From assembly GCA_021324155.1 (NCBI GenBank), contig JAJPJQ010000046.1:1-62730 (forward strand): a stretch of 62,730 nucleotides of DNA, written 5' to 3'. Below, in pieces: positions 22,941 through 44,485 of the stretch (position 1 is the first letter of the stretch; every line of letters starts with the position of its first letter). The notes beneath the pieces are model-generated. The model was not told the origin of the DNA. It worked only from the letters and a program-made list of their open reading frames with translations, and made no database searches. The translations under genes and the position numbers were made by a program. The DNA is from Pseudomonadota bacterium (GTDB taxonomy: Bacteria; Desulfobacterota; Binatia; UBA9968).

Positions 22941-23621
22941 TCAGCCGAGGTTGGCCACATAATCGGCGAGCTTCACCTCTTTGATGACGAGAAACTCATC
23001 TGGGTTCGTCTCGATCAGCCCCAGGTTGTGAAACCTTTGCATGAAAATACTGACCCTGGATTGCGTCGCGCCCACCATGCGCGACAATTCTTCGTGGCTT
23101 ATTTTCAGTTCGATGCGAATGCTGTGGGGATCGCGCTTGCCCATCGTCCGCGCGAGCCGGAGCAGCGTTTTGCCGAGCCGCTGTTCGCTGTCGACCGTCA
23201 CCAGATTGGAGATGATCTGCTGCTGGTCGGCGATGCGCACCGCGAGATACTGGACAAACCCCTCGAACAGCGATTCGTCTTTCAACCGCGCAAAGAAGCG
23301 ATCGCAAGGTATTTGCTTTAAAACCGTTTCCTGCATCGCGACCGCCGTTTCCGCCCGCGCGTCCAAGCCGGACAAACACAGCTCGCCGAAAACATCTCCC
23401 GCGGCATGAATGGCGAGGATGCACTCCCTGCCTTCCGTGGCGAGCATGAGCAGCTTGATCTGCCCGCTCTCGATGAAATAAACTTTTTCGTCCTTATCGC
23501 CGTGGCTGTAAACGGTTGCATTCGCCGCCATCTTGATAGCGGTGGAATTCACGGTTTCGAGCCTGAGCGAATCGCGGAGCTTCTGCTTGAACGCGTCCAC
23601 TTGGGGATACTCTTCAATCAT
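22941..23621 (-). CDS. Crp/Fnr family transcriptional regulator, copy 2
   Basis: A 226-residue paralogue of the protein at 6793, alignable end to end without gaps. Sensor beta roll 30-120, dimer helix 130-150, winged helix 165-220 with the recognition helix near ATQSRVSIFMQRF. The phosphate-binding cassette again has Glu-Thr in place of Arg-Ser. Three cysteines (RECI, GELCL, IPCDR) are too few for an FNR-type cluster. It lies 42 bases after a small lipoprotein gene that has its own palindrome promoter, so it is probably autoregulated, the usual arrangement for a dedicated regulator. Confidence 0.9.
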   Translation of the reverse strand: MIEEYPQVDAFKQKLRDSLRLETVNSTAIKMAANATVYSHGDKDEKVYFIESGQIKLLMLATEGRECILAIHAAGDVFGELCLSGLDARAETAVAMQETVLKQIPCDRFFARLKDESLFEGFVQYLAVRIADQQQIISNLVTVDSEQRLGKTLLRLARTMGKRDPHSIRIELKISHEELSRMVGATQSRVSIFMQRFHNLGLIETNPDEFLVIKEVKLADYVANLG

Positions 23622-35557: not shown

Positions 35558-36490
35558 TTATACGACCCACTCTCTCAGCCGCGAGCTGCCGTAATCGACG
35601 AGCATGACGAGAACGATCAGGACGACGACGATCGCGGCCGCCTCCTGATACTGAAACGTGCGGAAGCTCGTGTTCATCAGATAACCGATGCCGCCCGCGC
35701 CGATCAAGCCCAGCACGGATGCCGAGCGAATATTCGTCTCGAAACGGTACAGCGTGAAAGAGATCAGGTCCGGCAGGATCTGCGGCACGACCGCGAAAGC
35801 GAGCACCTGCGAATAGCCGGCGCCGGTTGCGCGGATCGCTTCGACGACGCCTTCGTCGATGTTCTCGACCGATTCCGACAGCAGCTTGCCGAGGACGGTT
35901 GCGGTGTGAATGAAGAGCGCCATCGTTCCGGCGAACGCGCCGAGACCGACGGCAGCGACGAAGAGCAGACCGAGCGCGAGGTCGGGAATCGTACGGATAA
36001 AATTGAGCATGCCGCGGACCGCCGAGTACACCAGCGGATGCGGCGTCGTGTTACGCGCGGCGAGGAACGCGAGCGGAAACGCCACGATGAGCGCGAGGAA
36101 AGTTCCGGCGAGCGCCATCTGGATTGTCTCGAGCGTCGCGCCTACGATCGTCTGGGGAAACGTCGCCTCCCACCAGCGCCGTTTGATCCTTTGCTCCTCC
36201 GCCGACATCGGCAGCGGCAGCAGCAGCTTCGGAAGCGAGAGACCTTCGGGAAGAAAGTAGCTTTGCGCGTCCGTAACCTTCGAGAAATCGGGCGGCAGCA
36301 TGCGGTTGATCGTATCGACGATCTGCGGTACGCCGCGCACCAGCTCGGCGGGCCGGATCTTCGCGCCCTGGAACGACCACAAAAGCAGGAGCACCAGGGC
36401 GGCCGCGCCCACAAAAAAGCGCGGCCCGCGCCGCGGCTCGGGCGGCGCTTCGGAAAATATATCGTTATCGGCTCCCGCGGATTGTGCCAC
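35558..36490 (-). CDS. phnE: Phosphonate ABC transporter permease PhnE
   Basis: A 310-residue inner-membrane permease with a cytoplasmic N-terminus, a first helix near 28-43 and at least five more helices. The family signature and EAA-type loop (YSQVLAFAVVPQILPDLISF) are present, followed by RSASVLGLIGAGGIGYLM. The GTG start has GGAGGG at good spacing. It would form an importer with the PhnC and PhnD encoded 6-8 kb away on the same strand (42706-44485); the rest of the locus is interposed. The 5'-nucleotidase gene ends 34 bases upstream. Confidence 0.9.
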   Translation of the reverse strand: MAQSAGADNDIFSEAPPEPRRGPRFFVGAAALVLLLLWSFQGAKIRPAELVRGVPQIVDTINRMLPPDFSKVTDAQSYFLPEGLSLPKLLLPLPMSAEEQRIKRRWWEATFPQTIVGATLETIQMALAGTFLALIVAFPLAFLAARNTTPHPLVYSAVRGMLNFIRTIPDLALGLLFVAAVGLGAFAGTMALFIHTATVLGKLLSESVENIDEGVVEAIRATGAGYSQVLAFAVVPQILPDLISFTLYRFETNIRSASVLGLIGAGGIGYLMNTSFRTFQYQEAAAIVVVLIVLVMLVDYGSSRLREWVV

Positions 36491-38158: not shown

Positions 38159-39142
38159 ATGAAAAGGATCGCTCTCCATCTCTGCTTCATCGCCCTGCTT
38201 CTCGCGGCCGCCGCAGCGGCCGCCGCCCCGGCGCCGCGCCCCTGGAAAATCGCGATTTTGCTCGCGCAGTCGGGTCCGTCGGAGGACCAGACGACCCGCG
38301 GTCTGCGCGAAGGGCTCAAGGATCTGGGCTACGCCGAGCGCAAGAACGTCGTCATCGAGATCAACGATCTGAAAGGCAAAAGTGCGGCGCTCGATCCGGC
38401 GGCGGCGGAGCTCGCCCGCAAGGGCGGCATCGACCTCATCTTCACCAACGGCACGCGTGCCACGCGCGCGGCGATGACGGCGACCAAAACGATTCCGATC
38501 GTCTTCCGTCACCCCGCCGATCCCGTCGCCATGGGGTTCATCAAATCGATGGAGCGGCCGGGCGGCAATGTCACAGGGATCGCGGCCTTCTCCGGCCGCA
38601 CGGTCGAGGAGCGCGTGCTGATTTTGAAAACGTTCGCGCCGCGCGTGCGCCGCGTGCACATCTTCTACGACCCGAATAACGCTTTCGCGCGCGAGAACTT
38701 CGTCGCGGCGAAGCAGGCGGCCGAGCGCAACGGCCTCGAGGTCAGCGAGCATTCGATAAAGACTCCGGATGAGCTGAAGACCGCCCTCGCCTCACTGACG
38801 AAAAGCGACGAGAATGCTATCTTCGAAGTCTCGGACGATCTCATCGAGAGTCAGGCGGAGCTTCTCTTCGATGCGGCGCGGCAGAACGGAATGCCGAGCA
38901 TGTTCGAAGGCGCCGACTGGGCGATCAAAGGCAGTCTGCTGAGCTACGGTGCGAGCTATTACCAGATGGGCCGGCAGGCGGCGCGTATCGTCAACCGCAT
39001 CTTTCGCGGGGAGAAGCCTGCGAACGTCGCAGCGGAGCGCGCGAACAAATACGACCTTATCGTGAACCTTCGCATGGCGAAAGCGATCGGTCTCGTGATC
39101 CCGCCCGAGACGTTGAAGAAAGCCGACAAGGTCGTTCGCTAG
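38159..39142 (+). CDS. ABC-type substrate-binding protein (TrpX/ABC_sub_bind family)
   Basis: A 327-residue precursor with a signal peptide ending near residue 22. The mature two-lobed protein has AILLAQSGPSEDQTTRGLREGLKDLGY, PAAAELARKGGIDLIFTNGTRAT and YYQMGRQAARIVNRIFRGEKPANV, as in the ABC_sub_bind family of putative amino-acid or tryptophan binding proteins. Its stop is one base before the start of the cyclic-nucleotide/DASS fusion gene, so the two are translationally linked. No ABC permease or ATPase adjoins it. Confidence 0.85.
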   Translation: MKRIALHLCFIALLLAAAAAAAAPAPRPWKIAILLAQSGPSEDQTTRGLREGLKDLGYAERKNVVIEINDLKGKSAALDPAAAELARKGGIDLIFTNGTRATRAAMTATKTIPIVFRHPADPVAMGFIKSMERPGGNVTGIAAFSGRTVEERVLILKTFAPRVRRVHIFYDPNNAFARENFVAAKQAAERNGLEVSEHSIKTPDELKTALASLTKSDENAIFEVSDDLIESQAELLFDAARQNGMPSMFEGADWAIKGSLLSYGASYYQMGRQAARIVNRIFRGEKPANVAAERANKYDLIVNLRMAKAIGLVIPPETLKKADKVVR

Positions 39143-39143
39143 C

Positions 39144-41804
39144 ATGGCCGATCTCGCCGATACGATACAAAAAATCTCCATTTTCTCGTCGCTCTCGCGC
39201 GAGGACATCGCCAAAGTTCTGGGAAAGCTCGAAGAGCTTACCTATGCGCCCGGCACGACCATCATCAAGCAGGGCGACGTGGGGGACGCGTTTTACTTGA
39301 TCCACTCCGGCGCGGTCGAGGTGGTGCTCGAAGGCTTCGGCGGGCGATCGGAGTCACTCGCGGTGCTCGGGCCGCAGGAAGCGTTCGGCGAGATGGCGCT
39401 GTTCTCGGGCGATCCGCGTTCGGCGACCGTTGTCGCCGTCAAAGATACGACGGTGTGGCGCCTCTCGCGCGACGCGTGGAACGATCTGATTGAAAAACAC
39501 CCGCAGTGGCCGCTGCATTTCTGCGCCGTCTTGAGCAAGCGTCTGGCGCGCGTCGAGCATGCCTATTCGACCGGCCGCGAGGCCTTCAACTCCCTCGCCG
39601 AGGAATTCTACGGCTCGCGTCCGCCCGAAGAGCAGCGATTCTTCCGCCACGCCGCGCTGCTGGAGACCATCGATCCGGAGACGATGGAATTTGTGCTGGA
39701 TATGGAGGGGTCGAAAGGCTACCTCGCGCACATCGAAGCGTCGCACGCGCCCTTGATTCACGCGACTAACGGCGGACGCCGCCAACTCCACGGCTTTTTC
39801 CGCGATCTCCTGATCTCGAAGCTGGTGGCGCAGGAAGGTGACGATGCCAAACGCCGGCTTCATTCCCACCTCGCCGCGCGCTTCGAGGAATTGAAGGATT
39901 GGGCCGCGGCGCTGCGCCAGCGCGTAGAGGCCGAGGAATGGTCCGCGGCCGCCGACACGATCGCGGCGCACAAAGACGATCTGCTGACGGATTCGGCGTC
40001 GCTTCTCAAGCAGGCGCTGGAGAAAATGCCGCCGGATATTTTCTACCGCGACCTCCGCCTAGTCCACACCAAAGCCGATACGCTCGCCCGCCTCGAAGAT
40101 TTCACCGGCGCCGTGCGCACGTACAAAGAAATCCTCTCGCAACGCGCCGGGTCGACTGCGCCAGCCTCCGTCGCGCGTTATCAGCAGATGGCAAACGCGT
40201 TCGTCGAGAAAAAGGATTATGCGCAGGCGCTGAACTATCTGCGCGGCGCGCTCAATTTGCTGGAAAAAAGCGACGTGTCGATGCCGACCGATATGCGCGA
40301 AGCTTTTCGCGAACAGCCGGAGCCGCGTGCGCTGGCCGCCGGCGCGCAAGATACCGCCGAGCACCGGCGCTGGTCGCGCGCTTACGCGGCGCTTTCGGGC
40401 TTTCGCCGCCCCTCGATGAGCCGCTGGATCGGCGGCATCCTCGGCGTCACGGTTTGGGCCTATCTTTGGTTCGTCCAGCCCGACATCGGTCTCGAGGCCG
40501 ACGGTATGCGGCCGTTTGCGCTGCTCGCGCTGACGCTCATTTTCTGGGCGTTTTGGGTTTTTCCCGACTACGGCGTGGCGCTCATCTTCGTTCTCGCCAT
40601 GATCCTGACGGGCTTAAGTCCTCCCGAAGAGGCGCTGGGCGGCTTCGCGAGCACAACTTGGTTCATGACACTCGGCGTCTTGGGGCTCGGCGCGGCAATC
40701 ACGAGCTCAGGATTATTTTATCGGCTCTCGCTCGGCCTCGTGCGCTTTTTTCCGCTGACCTACTACTGGCAGATTACCGCGCTGGGCTTCATGGGCGTCG
40801 TGATCACCGCGCTGATTCCCCAGCAGACCGCGCGCACGGCGATCAGCAGCCAGATGCTGCTGAACCTCTCCGAGAGCTTGGGTTACAAGACGCCTTCGAG
40901 GGCTTCGACCGGTCTTTTCGCCGCAACGTTTTTAGGCCTGGGCCAGCTGGGCTTTCTGTACCTCACCGGGTCGACCTCGAACCTGCTCGCCTGGGGCCTT
41001 CTGCCAAAAGACGTGCGCGCGCAGTTCACCTGGGGCTACTGGTTCGTCGCCGCGCTGCCGCCGACGCTCGTCGTGATCGCTATCATGGTCGTAGCGATCG
41101 TCTTTCTGTATCCGCCGGAGTCGAAGCCGCAGATCTCGTACAAGATGGTCGAGAACCAACTGGAAATATTGGGACCGGTGTCGAAGAACGAGTGGATCAC
41201 GCTCACGATGCTCGTGTTCATGGTCGGCGGATGGCTGACTCAGCCGTACCACAAGATCGACAGCGCCTGGATCTCACTGATCGGCCTCTGCGTGTTGATC
41301 AATTCCGGCGTGCTCGGCTGGGGCATGGTGAAGAAGGGCATCGACTGGGAAATGCTCATCTATCTCGGGGCGACGCTCAGCATTCCCTCGATTCTCACTA
41401 AGGCGAAGATCGACCAGTGGCTGGTCGGCTTCATCTCGCCGGTAATCATGCCGTATGTCGATTACCCGGCGGTCTCGTTCATCATGATTGCGCTGTTCAT
41501 CTATGTCATGAAGCTCTTTTTCACGAGCGGCCTCGCGGTCATCACGCTGTCGATCGTTTTGATCCCGCTCGCGGTCGACATGCAAATTAGCCCGTGGATC
41601 ATCATCATGCTGATTCTGATCGCGACCGAAGTGTGGTTCTTCCCGTTCCAGGTCGATTGGCACACCCTCGCGATGGCGACGACCGAGGGAAAGGGATTTT
41701 CCTACCGCCTGATGGGGCGGATCAATCCGATCTACGCGGTCGCCTACCTGCTCGCGCTGATCGCGGCGATTCCCTTCTGGAGATATCTGGGATTGATCGG
41801 CTAG
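39144..41804 (+). CDS. Fusion of a cyclic-nucleotide-binding domain, a MalT-like/TPR helical region and a DASS (SLC13) transporter
   Basis: An 886-residue protein. Residues about 12-130 are a cNMP-binding domain with a canonical cassette (FGEMALFSGDPRSATV, Arg92-Ser93 kept). Residues about 150-400 resemble the helical and TPR part of MalT-type regulators: FFRHAALLETIDPETMEFVL, LHGFFRDLLISKL, LHSHLAARFEEL. From about 428 a membrane domain of 11 or more helices has DASS features (SQMLLNLSES, a STSNLLAWG loop, and FTSGLAVITL and WHTLAM segments). DASS proteins import di- and tricarboxylates or sulfate with Na+. The fusion suggests allosteric control by a cyclic nucleotide. The adjacent binding-protein gene is likely translationally coupled. 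Confidence 0.85.
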   Translation: MADLADTIQKISIFSSLSREDIAKVLGKLEELTYAPGTTIIKQGDVGDAFYLIHSGAVEVVLEGFGGRSESLAVLGPQEAFGEMALFSGDPRSATVVAVKDTTVWRLSRDAWNDLIEKHPQWPLHFCAVLSKRLARVEHAYSTGREAFNSLAEEFYGSRPPEEQRFFRHAALLETIDPETMEFVLDMEGSKGYLAHIEASHAPLIHATNGGRRQLHGFFRDLLISKLVAQEGDDAKRRLHSHLAARFEELKDWAAALRQRVEAEEWSAAADTIAAHKDDLLTDSASLLKQALEKMPPDIFYRDLRLVHTKADTLARLEDFTGAVRTYKEILSQRAGSTAPASVARYQQMANAFVEKKDYAQALNYLRGALNLLEKSDVSMPTDMREAFREQPEPRALAAGAQDTAEHRRWSRAYAALSGFRRPSMSRWIGGILGVTVWAYLWFVQPDIGLEADGMRPFALLALTLIFWAFWVFPDYGVALIFVLAMILTGLSPPEEALGGFASTTWFMTLGVLGLGAAITSSGLFYRLSLGLVRFFPLTYYWQITALGFMGVVITALIPQQTARTAISSQMLLNLSESLGYKTPSRASTGLFAATFLGLGQLGFLYLTGSTSNLLAWGLLPKDVRAQFTWGYWFVAALPPTLVVIAIMVVAIVFLYPPESKPQISYKMVENQLEILGPVSKNEWITLTMLVFMVGGWLTQPYHKIDSAWISLIGLCVLINSGVLGWGMVKKGIDWEMLIYLGATLSIPSILTKAKIDQWLVGFISPVIMPYVDYPAVSFIMIALFIYVMKLFFTSGLAVITLSIVLIPLAVDMQISPWIIIMLILIATEVWFFPFQVDWHTLAMATTEGKGFSYRLMGRINPIYAVAYLLALIAAIPFWRYLGLIG

Positions 41805-41808
41805 CTCG

Positions 41809-42690
41809 CTATTCCAGCGTGTAGGTCTTCAAAAACTCCGGGATAATGACTTTGATCGCGCCTTCGACCGCGAGAATATCGCGCTTGAAGCGCTCGGCTC
41901 GTTTTCGCCTAGGAGGCGGCAGCGCCTGAGAAAAGGGCGCGCGCCACTCGTCGAAGTGCTGCATGATGATCGTCTTAGGCTTGAGCGCCTTGAGAGCGCT
42001 CTTCAGATCGTAAGCGCGGCCCGGCTCGGCGAGCAGCGCCCAATCGGGATTCAGACCGGGCAGCTTTGCTTCGACGAAATTGGCCGTGCTCTGGTGCAGC
42101 ACCTTGCGGTTCCCGAAGGTGAAGACGTAGACGAAGCTGCCGCCCTCGACGAAATGCCGGCCGAGGATCCGGCTCACCGGCGAGACGAGCTCTTTCGTCT
42201 CGCTGACTTCGTACTGTCCCTGCGGGACGCCGTGGCGGCTTTCGATCACCTCGACGGAAAAATCCTCAAAGTCCAATTTCTCGCCGCCCTTGATCGCCGT
42301 CAATCGAGCGCGATCGATGCCGGCGCTCAGCATGAGGTTGGCAGTGGTTTGTGAGCCGATGACCTTAGCGCCGAATTTTTTCGCGATAAACGGAACGTCG
42401 GCGGCATGGTCGGCATGGCTGTGGCCGACGAAGATGTAGTCGGCCGCCTTAATCTGCTCCAGCACGGCCGCCTCGTCGGACTGCCACTCGCGCTCGCGGG
42501 CGGCCGTCCGGCGCGTGAGAAACGGATCGATCAGGATGGTCGTCTTGCCGACCCGGATGTCCCAGCCGACGACACCGAGCCATTTGAGCGTGACTTTTTC
42601 CGCCGTGCCGTTCGCATCGGCGGCGCCGCCTGAATGCGGAAACGAGAGAAAGAAAAACGCGAGCAGGATCAGGGCGGGATGCGTTTTCAT
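41809..42690 (-). CDS. MBL-fold metallohydrolase (UlaG-like), exported
   Basis: A 293-residue precursor with a signal peptide (about 1-23). The metallo-beta-lactamase fold shows LKWLGVVGWDIRVGKTTILIDPFLTRR and the metal motif HSHADHAAD. UlaG-type proteins hydrolyse lactones or phosphodiesters. The periplasmic location and the neighbours (phnC 16 bases upstream, 5'-nucleotidase nearby) suggest a phosphoester substrate, by inference only. It converges on the fusion gene with 4 bases between the stops. Confidence 0.8.
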   Translation of the reverse strand: MKTHPALILLAFFFLSFPHSGGAADANGTAEKVTLKWLGVVGWDIRVGKTTILIDPFLTRRTAAREREWQSDEAAVLEQIKAADYIFVGHSHADHAADVPFIAKKFGAKVIGSQTTANLMLSAGIDRARLTAIKGGEKLDFEDFSVEVIESRHGVPQGQYEVSETKELVSPVSRILGRHFVEGGSFVYVFTFGNRKVLHQSTANFVEAKLPGLNPDWALLAEPGRAYDLKSALKALKPKTIIMQHFDEWRAPFSQALPPPRRKRAERFKRDILAVEGAIKVIIPEFLKTYTLE

Positions 42691-42705: not shown

Positions 42706-43479
42706 TTATTTTCTTTGGTAGATGTCCTCCACGACCGCGTCGGTCAGCTGCTTCACCGGGCCGTCGAAGAAAACCCGTCCTTCCTTGAGACCGACGACCC
42801 GGTCGGCGTACTCGCGCGTCAGGTCGAGCGTATGCAGGCTCACGAGCGCCGTGATGCCGTCCTCACGGCAGACGCGCTTTAAAATATCGAGTACGACGCG
42901 CGAGAGCTTGGGGTCGAGACTCGACACCGGCTCGTCGGCGAGAATAAGCGCAGGGCTTTGCATCAGCGTGCGCGCGATGGCGACGCGCTGCTGCTCGCCG
43001 CCGGAAAGCTGGTCCGCGCGCTTGTAGGCGTGCGGCAGCAGGCCGACGCGCTTGAGATTGACGAGTGCCTGACGGCGCTCGTCACGGCTGAAAAACCGTA
43101 GGCAGCTCTTCACGCTCGACTGGTAGCCGAGCGCGCCGGAGAGGACGTTTTCAATCACCGTCAGGCGCTTGACGATGTTGTAGTGCTGAAAGATCATGCC
43201 GACTCTGCGCCGGTAGAGCCGCATGTCGGCCCGTCCCAGCTTTGCAACGTCGATCTTCGCGCCGTCGGCGGCGGGAGCGAAGGTCGCGCGCGGCAGGTAA
43301 ATCGCACCGCCGGTCGGCTCGACGAGGCGGTTGACGCAGCGAAGCAGCGTGGACTTTCCCGAGCCCGACAGCCCGATGACGCCCACGAACTCGCCCTTTT
43401 CGACGCTGAGATCGATGCCGGCGAGCACCTGTGTCGCGCCGTAGCTCTTGTGCAGCCCCCTGATCTCTAAAATCGACAT
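42706..43479 (-). CDS. phnC: Phosphonate ABC transporter ATP-binding protein PhnC
   Basis: A 257-residue ABC ATPase. Walker A GLSGSGKST is near residues 36-44, LSGGEQQRVAIARTL (ABC signature) near 165, and LILADEPVSSLD (Walker B) follows. The ATYLPRATF-like insertion and SLH-type switch (ALVSLHTLDL) are typical of PhnC rather than amino-acid importer ATPases. It forms an operon with phnD upstream (88-base gap) and the MBL gene downstream. Confidence 0.9.
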   Translation of the reverse strand: MSILEIRGLHKSYGATQVLAGIDLSVEKGEFVGVIGLSGSGKSTLLRCVNRLVEPTGGAIYLPRATFAPAADGAKIDVAKLGRADMRLYRRRVGMIFQHYNIVKRLTVIENVLSGALGYQSSVKSCLRFFSRDERRQALVNLKRVGLLPHAYKRADQLSGGEQQRVAIARTLMQSPALILADEPVSSLDPKLSRVVLDILKRVCREDGITALVSLHTLDLTREYADRVVGLKEGRVFFDGPVKQLTDAVVEDIYQRK

Positions 43480-43494: not shown

Positions 43495-43580
43495 TTCGAG
43501 TGCTGGAGTATCGGAGTGTTGTAATTACTATCATTACTCCATCACTCCATTTATAGTTATTTTATAGTTATTTTTTCTTG
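43495..43580. repeat. A/T-rich degenerate repeat spacer between phnD and phnC
   Basis: The gap has several GGAGT(A/G)-like units on one strand and ACTCCA units on the other, plus a direct repeat of TTATAGTTATTT near 43549-43570. It can form a weak stem. No gene is seen. It may be a recombination-prone or structured spacer between the two genes. Confidence 0.4.
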
Positions 43581-44485
43581 AGTGCTTCTTTAAGATTAAT
43601 GCCGGCGCTCTTGAAGGCCGCGCGCACCGAATCGTAGTCTTGATCGCTGGCGGGCATAAAACCGTCGATCTGGTAGAGGTCGCGCAGCATCTTCTGTCCC
43701 GCTGGATCTTTGCCGAGAGCCAGGAAGGTATCGGTGATCTTCTTGGCCACAGCGGGATCGAGATCCGCGCGATAGACGAGATTGTCCGAGGGAATCGGCT
43801 CCGAGTAGGCGATCGCGCGGATCTGCTGCTGCTCTTCGGGATTTTTCAAATACTGCATCCAGGCGGCGTCCTTGCCGTCGGTGAAATTGGCGAACGTCGC
43901 GCCGGCGTCGACCTTGCGGTGTAGTACCGCTAGGACTGTCGCGTCGTGGCCGCCGGAATAAAGGACATGCGCGAAGTCCTTGCCCGGATCGATGCCCTGC
44001 TCCAAAAACATCTTGCGCGGGATGATGTGGCCGGTCGTCGAGAGCGGGTCGCCGAAAGCGAAGGTCTTGTTCTTGAGATCGTTCAGCGTCTTGATGCCGC
44101 TGTCCGACCGCGTGATGATCGCGGCGTAATACGCGGCGCGGCCTTTGCGATGCGACTTCAGCGCGACCTGGATGTTCGCCTCGTTCTTCGCTAGGACGTA
44201 GGAAGCAGGGCTTAAAAAAGCGATGTCGAGCTTTTTCGCCCGCAGCGCCTCGACCACGCCCGTATAATCCGTCGCGACAAACGGCTCGACGTCCATGCCG
44301 AGCTCTTTGTGCAGAATGTCGACGATCGGCTGGGCGTTTTGCGCAACCTGCTGGACGTTCTCGGAAGGCACGAAGCCGACCCGGAGAACACCCTTCGAGG
44401 ATTTCGCCCCGCCGCAGCCGGTGAGCGTCGGGGCTGCGATGACGAGCAAGACAAAAAGCCATCGGCTCGCTCTCATTTCACGCAT
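43568..44485 (-). CDS. phnD: Phosphate/phosphite/phosphonate ABC transporter substrate-binding protein PhnD
   Basis: A 305-residue lipoprotein (lipobox TLTGC near residue 24). PhnD-type features: LRVGFVPSENVQQVAQNAQPIVDILHKELGMDVEPFVATDYTGVVEALRAKKLDIAFLSP and the GGHDATVLAVLHRKVDAGA segment. It binds a phosphorus oxyanion; phosphonate, phosphite and phosphate are all possible. Transcribed toward phnC. Expression may depend on phosphate status, but no Pho box is evident to me. Confidence 0.9.
   Translation of the reverse strand: MREMRASRWLFVLLVIAAPTLTGCGGAKSSKGVLRVGFVPSENVQQVAQNAQPIVDILHKELGMDVEPFVATDYTGVVEALRAKKLDIAFLSPASYVLAKNEANIQVALKSHRKGRAAYYAAIITRSDSGIKTLNDLKNKTFAFGDPLSTTGHIIPRKMFLEQGIDPGKDFAHVLYSGGHDATVLAVLHRKVDAGATFANFTDGKDAAWMQYLKNPEEQQQIRAIAYSEPIPSDNLVYRADLDPAVAKKITDTFLALGKDPAGQKMLRDLYQIDGFMPASDQDYDSVRAAFKSAGINLKEALKKK

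Follow-up and report, generated by a model that had tools for sequence, protein, structure and literature searches.

SLC9C1 is a precedent for a secondary carrier gated by a cyclic nucleotide: according to the passages concerned, it carries a cyclic-nucleotide-binding (cNMP) domain on the same chain and is gated by cyclic nucleotide and voltage (PMC6052114, PMC10620091). As far as such passages go, direct cyclic-nucleotide control of a secondary carrier is known in this animal exchanger and in bacteria is only suggested by domain fusions; a review names bacterial MFS transporters fused to cyclic-nucleotide-binding domains, in a passage that states no function for them (PMC10710835). For the DASS family, the relevant part of the LaINDY paper reports that in exchangers the Na1 and Na2 sites are taken up by Arg159 and His392 instead of Na+ (PMC7553777). 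The subject here is a gene for an 886-residue protein in which a cNMP domain, a middle part resembling the regulator MalT, and a DASS transporter are joined in that order, found in a 62,730-nucleotide stretch of DNA (contig JAJPJQ010000046.1 of assembly GCA_021324155.1, from a member of the class Binatia; this whole stretch is referred to as the window).

The protein belongs among carriers with a fused cyclic-nucleotide domain, and is both real and conserved. Like the MFS fusions it is a bacterial secondary carrier, those having the MFS fold; SLC9C1, the sperm Na+/H+ exchanger of animals, comes from another carrier family again, has a voltage-sensing domain, and is without a MalT-type arm. An initial annotation, made from the DNA sequence, knew of no such architecture, and for the three-part form this stands, in that no description was recognised among open-licence PMC papers. 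It does not stand for the fusion as such: two-part cNMP-DASS proteins exist, and their record titles place them in four groups (Gammaproteobacteria, Planctomycetota, Cyanobacteria and Deltaproteobacteria), although no published description of a cNMP-DASS protein was recognised among those papers either. We consider it somewhat probable that the window protein is an elevator-type DASS carrier regulated by a cyclic nucleotide, either cAMP or cGMP, by way of the MalT-type arm.

Integrity of the fusion gene

The open reading frame (39144-41804) has the coordinates, strand and frame given in the initial annotation, and profile and fold searches confirm its three domain calls (Table 1). Prediction of the full-length structure, which the annotation had proposed, was only partly informative, since the helices of the TPR part can be seen in it while the arrangement of the domains is unusable (predicted template-modelling score 0.49). 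Given that stops or frameshifts interrupt a few of the copies (G023, G019, G021b, G022a), an assembly artefact or chance joining of neighbouring frames has to be considered, but is so improbable as to be negligible: ten other genomes contain homologues in a continuous frame that share 54-72% identity with the window protein across nearly its whole length, and on that evidence this explanation was rejected. Among the interrupted three-part genes, those at L053 (G021), L056 (G022) and L032 (G023) contain a stop or frameshift that may reflect sequencing error or decay.

The cNMP domain and its pocket

Pfam recognises the cNMP domain directly (PF00027, residues 33-119, 90.6 bits against a cut-off of 27.5), and the regulatory chains of PKA and PKG, together with CRPs, are among its best sequence matches in the PDB. 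Its phosphate-binding cassette, FGEMALFSGDPRSATVVA, contains Glu83 and also the pair Arg92-Ser93, to which the initial annotation had drawn attention. Comparison of sequences and structures shows these pocket residues to be intact. Both the Glu and the Arg are conserved: among close copies that include the site, 17/17 have the Arg (the next residue being Ser in 16 and Ala in one), as do 9/9 distant three-part copies, and Arg92 together with Gly82-Glu83 is kept in 26/26 three-part copies covering these positions. The contrast that the annotation drew with two regulators of the same window, supposedly without the pair, survives only in part. One CRP-type regulator was found there (22941-23621, minus strand) and no second; in the same register it has Arg-Ala (FGELCLSGLDARAETAVA), so that the Ser is indeed lost but the Arg is kept. 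To judge from these residues, cAMP or cGMP would bind through Glu83 and Arg92.

The arm-less fusions provide a useful comparison. Those at L044-L049 (Thiohalocapsa marina, Pleurocapsales, Planctomycetota, Thiotrichales and one Deltaproteobacteria metagenome-assembled genome) likewise place a cNMP fold directly ahead of a DASS core and are 25-30% identical to the window protein, but they differ in having no winged helix/TPR arm, no cyclase or phosphodiesterase gene in the available flanks, and no phosphate-binding Arg (absent in 6/6). Since the Arg is lost from all six, the cNMP domain must do something else in them, and it probably binds another ligand or none; in this sense, sister fusions of other lineages that are without the pocket Arg amount to a natural control set. 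In three further arm-less fusions (L063, L064 and L066) the Arg is present, while L097 (G510) is ambiguous. The retention of a cNMP fold beside DASS in L044-L049 despite the loss of the Arg favours an alternative in which this fold is a structural or oligomerisation module, or senses some other small ligand, without any gating by cyclic nucleotide, and three-part relatives from families f110, f112 and f113, in the available flanks of which no cyclase is linked, lean the same way. Set against this are the complete conservation of Arg92 and Gly82-Glu83 in the three-part copies and the clustering of cyclase and PDEase_II genes with the close copies (see below), and we regard this alternative as rather unlikely.

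The MalT-type arm

The MalT-like portion of the middle part is invisible to single-sequence Pfam, which offers only a suggestion of TPR_12 at residues 309-375 (23.7 bits, under the cut-off of 30.1), so that profile and fold searches were required. A profile of residues 117-432 was built from 10 sequences, the window protein included. Searched against the PDB with hmmsearch, it found E. coli MalT (8bob_C) at E 3.5e-6, with profile positions 46-188 aligned on MalT 266-409, that is, over the winged helix and the first helices of the arm; three designed TPR proteins outscore MalT in this search, by way of the TPR part. Five TPR families match 10/10 members at E <= 5 (best 6.8e-8).

An AlphaFold2 model of the middle part, made from the same alignment, has a mean predicted local distance difference test score (pLDDT) of 81.0. 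When it was searched with Foldseek, MalT ranked first at E 1.8e-3, with nothing under 1e-3. VIA-align gave Z 14.7 for MalT (151 residues, root-mean-square deviation 3.0), Z 12.0 for the STAND protein 6mfv and Z 9.8 for Apaf-1, and from rank 12 downward Z fell below 8. It must be remembered that mostly helical models typically reach a best Z of 14 from the arrangement of their helices alone, so a Z of this size is no proof in itself, and it is the sequence profile that carries the claim; the identification with MalT is credible because the profile points to the same protein, and the same region of it, as does the fold.

The middle part is accordingly a STAND-type winged helix and arm without the ATPase engine, having both the winged helix and the helical-repeat arm that characterise MalT/STAND proteins, and the MalT-like winged-helix/TPR reading of the initial annotation is borne out. 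The likeness is to the winged helix and the start of the superhelical arm. Unlike MalT, the window protein has no detected DNA-binding domain and no P-loop NTPase (NOD) domain (no NTPase family appears among the Pfam matches of the 886 residues up to E 1), and its arm sits between the cNMP domain and a membrane carrier.

The transport core

That the core is a DASS transporter, as first annotated, follows from Pfam (PF00939 Na_sulph_symp, residues 427-884, 130.7 bits against a cut-off of 27) and from its fold: the top three Foldseek matches are AtDiT2.1 (E 8.5e-17, template-modelling score 0.85 by target length), AtDiT1 and LaINDY. It is a divergent member of the family, scoring 136.2 bits with the NCBIfam model TIGR00785 dass, under its cut-off of 198.6, and a sequence search of the PDB gave only four matches at E <= 1e-3 (two of LaINDY, and chloroplast DiT1 and DiT2.1).

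LaINDY, DiT1 and DiT2.1, its nearest solved relatives, likewise have Arg at Na1 and a basic residue at Na2. Alignment with LaINDY (its chain numbering being 3 ahead of that in the paper, judged from four residues named in the relevant part of PMC7553777) puts Arg564 and Lys790 of the window protein at the positions of LaINDY Arg159 and His392, and these basic residues are present in 18/18 and 16/16 of the close rows covering them, respectively. Unlike LaINDY and the DiTs, the window protein has QQT and SGL at the SNT motifs, and LaINDY Glu146 and His401 are not conserved (Gly551 and Val799 here). Across the close rows the first motif is QQT, QQS or QKS and the second SGL, SFL, SRL or TRL. The substrate site of the core is thus unusual, and neither the two SNT motifs nor the open Na1 and Na2 sites of a Na+-coupled DASS cotransporter are seen. 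The initial annotation had called the protein an importer, whereas the closest relatives of the core are DASS exchangers; with Arg564 and Lys790 occupying the Na+ sites and neither SNT motif intact, a Na+-driven importer is doubtful. To go by these residues, the close copies are unlikely to couple transport to Na+, and an exchanger class for the core is plausible but not proven. The distant three-part clade has Ala or Gly at the Arg564 position and Arg at that of Lys790; these sister proteins (L088-L096, of f110, f112 and f113) have the cassette FGERALFSDRPRSATVVA and an HP1 motif D[SVT]T without an equivalent of Arg564.

The altered motifs also bear on whether transport is the main task at all. 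MalT is controlled by MalY and others, and the window protein could conceivably be a transceptor, in which the DASS core senses substrate and the MalT-like arm signals to partners, with the cyclic nucleotide as a co-signal and bulk transport minor. The MalT/STAND fold of the arm, the alteration of both SNT motifs in all close rows, and the Rec-cyclase, histidine kinase and orphan binding proteins of the neighbourhood would all suit such a role. Nonetheless, Pfam finds no DNA-binding or enzymatic output domain in the protein and the membrane core is strongly conserved, and we hold this idea to be quite improbable.

Distribution

In the window's order, 17/35 genomes match at E <= 1e-30, and in 13 of those 17 (its own included) the match runs from end to end or nearly so, two of the 13 having one internal stop; two other families of the order gave no match in 10 genomes. 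The class as a whole gave matches in 27/148 genomes. The same order of parts in a single frame (~800-830 aa) occurs in 8 genomes of f110, f112 and f113, and in two frames in G490; three-part proteins of other families in the class are 30-41% identical. The cNMP-DASS fusion at L065 (G026:C322), which shows traces of the arm, is broken into frames. A tree built on the DASS part places the 16 close rows in one fully supported clade and the 9 f110-like rows in another; how the clades join depends on long branches and was not relied on.

More widely, 6 of 395 genomes of the phylum (own included), a draw that contains few of the window's class, match the window protein at E <= 1e-40, and 6 match an arm-less query at 1e-30; only 2-3 first-look candidates were scored per genome in such wide draws, so that misses are possible. 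Beyond the class, only G235 in this draw has a cNMP-DASS fusion, which is arm-less, while four other matches are open frames of 495-518 aa that look DASS-only. No tblastn match was found in 72,556 plasmid records (window protein at E <= 1e-20, Thiohalocapsa fusion at E <= 1e-30). Close database matches are, by title, mostly from Deltaproteobacteria bacterium metagenome-assembled genomes; one other title names a Candidatus Binatia bacterium, and another Syntrophobacter sp. SbD2.

Cyclases and phosphodiesterases near the fusion gene

Using models for cyclases, phosphodiesterases and binding proteins built from genes found in this analysis, neighbourhood scans located a class III cyclase gene at <=5 kb from the fusion gene in 11/15 genomes, where the number of cyclases in each genome (3 to 16) would lead one to expect 0.36 genomes by chance. 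The count omits G030, where the gene is cut at the contig start and no cyclase was found in 8.1 kb downstream, and G032, where a 120-aa remnant has a HAMP-cyclase 188 bp away; expressed per gene copy, linkage is seen in 11/19, the G032 remnant coming on top when 20 are counted. Genomes without a linked cyclase are the window's own, G019, G034 and G022; contig ends within 1.4 kb cut off G019 and one of the two G022 copies on one side, and G034 on both. All 11 linked cyclases exceed the PF00211 cut-off. They are Rec-cyclases (PF00072+PF00211) in G029, G026, G017, G016, G024, G025, G021 and G020, and CHASE2-cyclases (PF05226+PF00211) in G027, G014, G016 and G023, the CHASE2 type lying downstream on the same strand in G016 (where the frames overlap) and G023 (489 bp). 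The linked Rec-cyclases have the metal-binding Asp residues and the Asn/Arg pair. A gene for PDEase_II (PF02112), the class-II cAMP phosphodiesterase, lies at <=1.1 kb from the copies in G023, G026 and G021b (3/20). In that cyclase and PDEase_II genes adjoin the close copies, cyclic-nucleotide control is supported, if indirectly, and the class of these cyclases would point to cAMP or cGMP as the messenger. One lineage thus offers a carrier with an intact pocket and, adjoining it in relatives, the likely enzymes to make and destroy the messenger.

A number of points weigh against control by a cyclic nucleotide. The probability of such linkage by chance, 1.2e-15 if the genomes are independent, overstates the case, as independence fails where neighbourhoods are partly co-inherited. 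The CHASE2-cyclase and transporter genes of G027 and of G014 run towards each other, and that of G027 has a TPR-CHAT gene next to its cyclase. At the position occupied in CyaB by the purine-selecting Lys, the linked Rec-cyclases have Arg or His. No cyclase gene was found within the 62.7-kb window, and none of the 9 class III cyclases of its genome is linked to the window copy. One of the nine, a Rec-cyclase on contig C13 that is 76% identical to the linked Rec-cyclase of G029, accompanies an array of binding-protein genes, with no DASS match found on that contig, so that the link may be of cyclase to binding protein rather than to transporter. In the three-part relatives of f110, f112 and f113, several of whose flanks end within 1.5 kb, no linked cyclase, phosphodiesterase or binding protein was found, and across 20 distant loci (L044-L049, L063-L066 and L088-L097), some with short flanks, linked cyclase and phosphodiesterase genes were likewise not found. 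Lastly, retention of the Arg would also fit a non-nucleotide anionic ligand. It may be that what is seen in the relatives is a binding-protein/kinase/cyclase module which includes the transporter, its pieces being separated in the window's own genome.

As a side observation, both G027 and G014 have, between the transporter and a phnC-like gene, a TPR-CHAT gene adjacent to the CHASE2-cyclase (L057, L058, L101, L102); PF12770 was scanned in G027 only, and the G014 neighbour looks alike.

The upstream binding protein

The binding-protein gene that the initial annotation placed one base upstream is present, and its product is an ABC_sub_bind protein (PF04392, 189.4 bits; the nearest NCBIfam model, NF041285 TrpX, gives 154.2 bits, far below its cut-off of 390). 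Such a gene stands directly upstream of the fusion gene in 14 of the 17 copies for which the upstream side can be assessed; it was not found beside G021b or G022a, nor within 1.4 kb upstream of G034. At the arm-less L066 (G235) a PF04392-like gene lies 4.3 kb away.

A binding protein encoded with its carrier recalls TRAP systems; Pfam matches down to a threshold of E 1 include no TRAP family, the core being PF00939 and the partner PF04392. It is possible, if doubtful, that the protein is a true delivery partner, which would make this a binding-protein-dependent DASS carrier of TRAP-like logic, a reading compatible with cyclic-nucleotide control. Besides the pairing itself, the window's genome has 24 PF04392 genes and only 2 PF02653 permeases, leaving most without an obvious ABC partner of the PF02653 family. 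Against this, we know of no binding-protein-dependent DASS carrier, the gene was not found at the three copies just named, the three-part relatives of f110, f112 and f113 show none in their available flanks, and the same kind of protein occurs in the array already mentioned, with a kinase and a cyclase. This array (C13:93213-113139; L099, L109, L110) comprises 17 PF04392 genes on one strand; it begins with a receiver-domain regulator (by eye), has a dCache-HAMP-GAF histidine kinase inside it, and ends with the Rec-cyclase.

A possible mechanism

If the protein is controlled by cyclic nucleotide as we propose, its cytosolic cNMP domain would bind the messenger via Glu83/Arg92, and the resulting movement would be relayed by the winged helix and TPR arm to the transport domain of a core that probably works without Na+, as an exchanger. 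The arm would have been borrowed from a MalT-like STAND protein and, lacking the ATPase, would act either as a lever or for docking; a STAND-type arm would then be a possible lever in a membrane transporter. The co-encoded binding protein might either hand over substrate or report it to the kinase/cyclase chain, and the most likely sequence of events would run from outside ligand to binding protein and kinase, then to the Rec-cyclase, the cyclic nucleotide, the cNMP domain, the MalT-type arm and finally the DASS core. In its fullest form, with binding proteins feeding a kinase and Rec-cyclase, PDEase_II erasing the messenger, and the messenger opening a binding-protein-fed DASS exchanger through the arm, this circuit is unlikely to hold in every part; were it to do so, it would to our knowledge contain the first DASS carrier to be gated by a cyclic nucleotide, and perhaps also the first that depends on a binding protein.

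Features of the locus and other genes of the window

Table 1 Features of the fusion gene and the gene directly upstream, in window coordinates.
Feature	Position	Strand	Remarks
PF04392 substrate-binding protein, signal-peptide-like N-terminus (by eye)	38159..39142	+	ends one base before fusion gene
cNMP–MalT-type winged helix/TPR arm–DASS fusion protein	39144..41804	+	886 aa; ATG at 39144, stop ends at 41804
Cyclic-nucleotide-binding domain	39159..39557	+	residues ~6-138; PF00027
Phosphate-binding cassette FGEMALFSGDPRSATVVA	39384..39437	+	residues 81-98; Glu83, Arg92-Ser93
MalT/STAND-type winged helix and first arm helices, without NTPase domain	39570..40043	+	residues ~143-300
TPR-like helices	40044..40277	+	residues ~301-378; TPR family matches, helices in models
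Linker before membrane domain, probably disordered	40278..40412	+	residues ~379-423; pLDDT <50 at 378-423
DASS transporter domain, exchanger-like	40413..41801	+	residues 424-886; PF00939
First substrate motif QQT (560-562; SNT in DASS cotransporters) and Arg564 (LaINDY Arg159, Na1 surrogate)	40821..40835	+	
Lys790 at LaINDY His392 position (Na2 surrogate) and second motif SGL (795-797)	41511..41534	+	

Genes for look-alikes of the phosphonate-type proteins PhnE, PhnC and PhnD (labelled by eye) lie at 35558-36490, 42706-43479 and 43568-44485, all on the minus strand, and are split by the opposite-strand pair of binding protein and transporter, an arrangement partly kept in relatives. Between the transporter gene and the phnC-like gene, 41809-42690 (minus strand) encodes a hydrolase of the metallo-beta-lactamase fold (PF00753/PF12706), which is convergent with the transporter gene, with 4 bases between the two.

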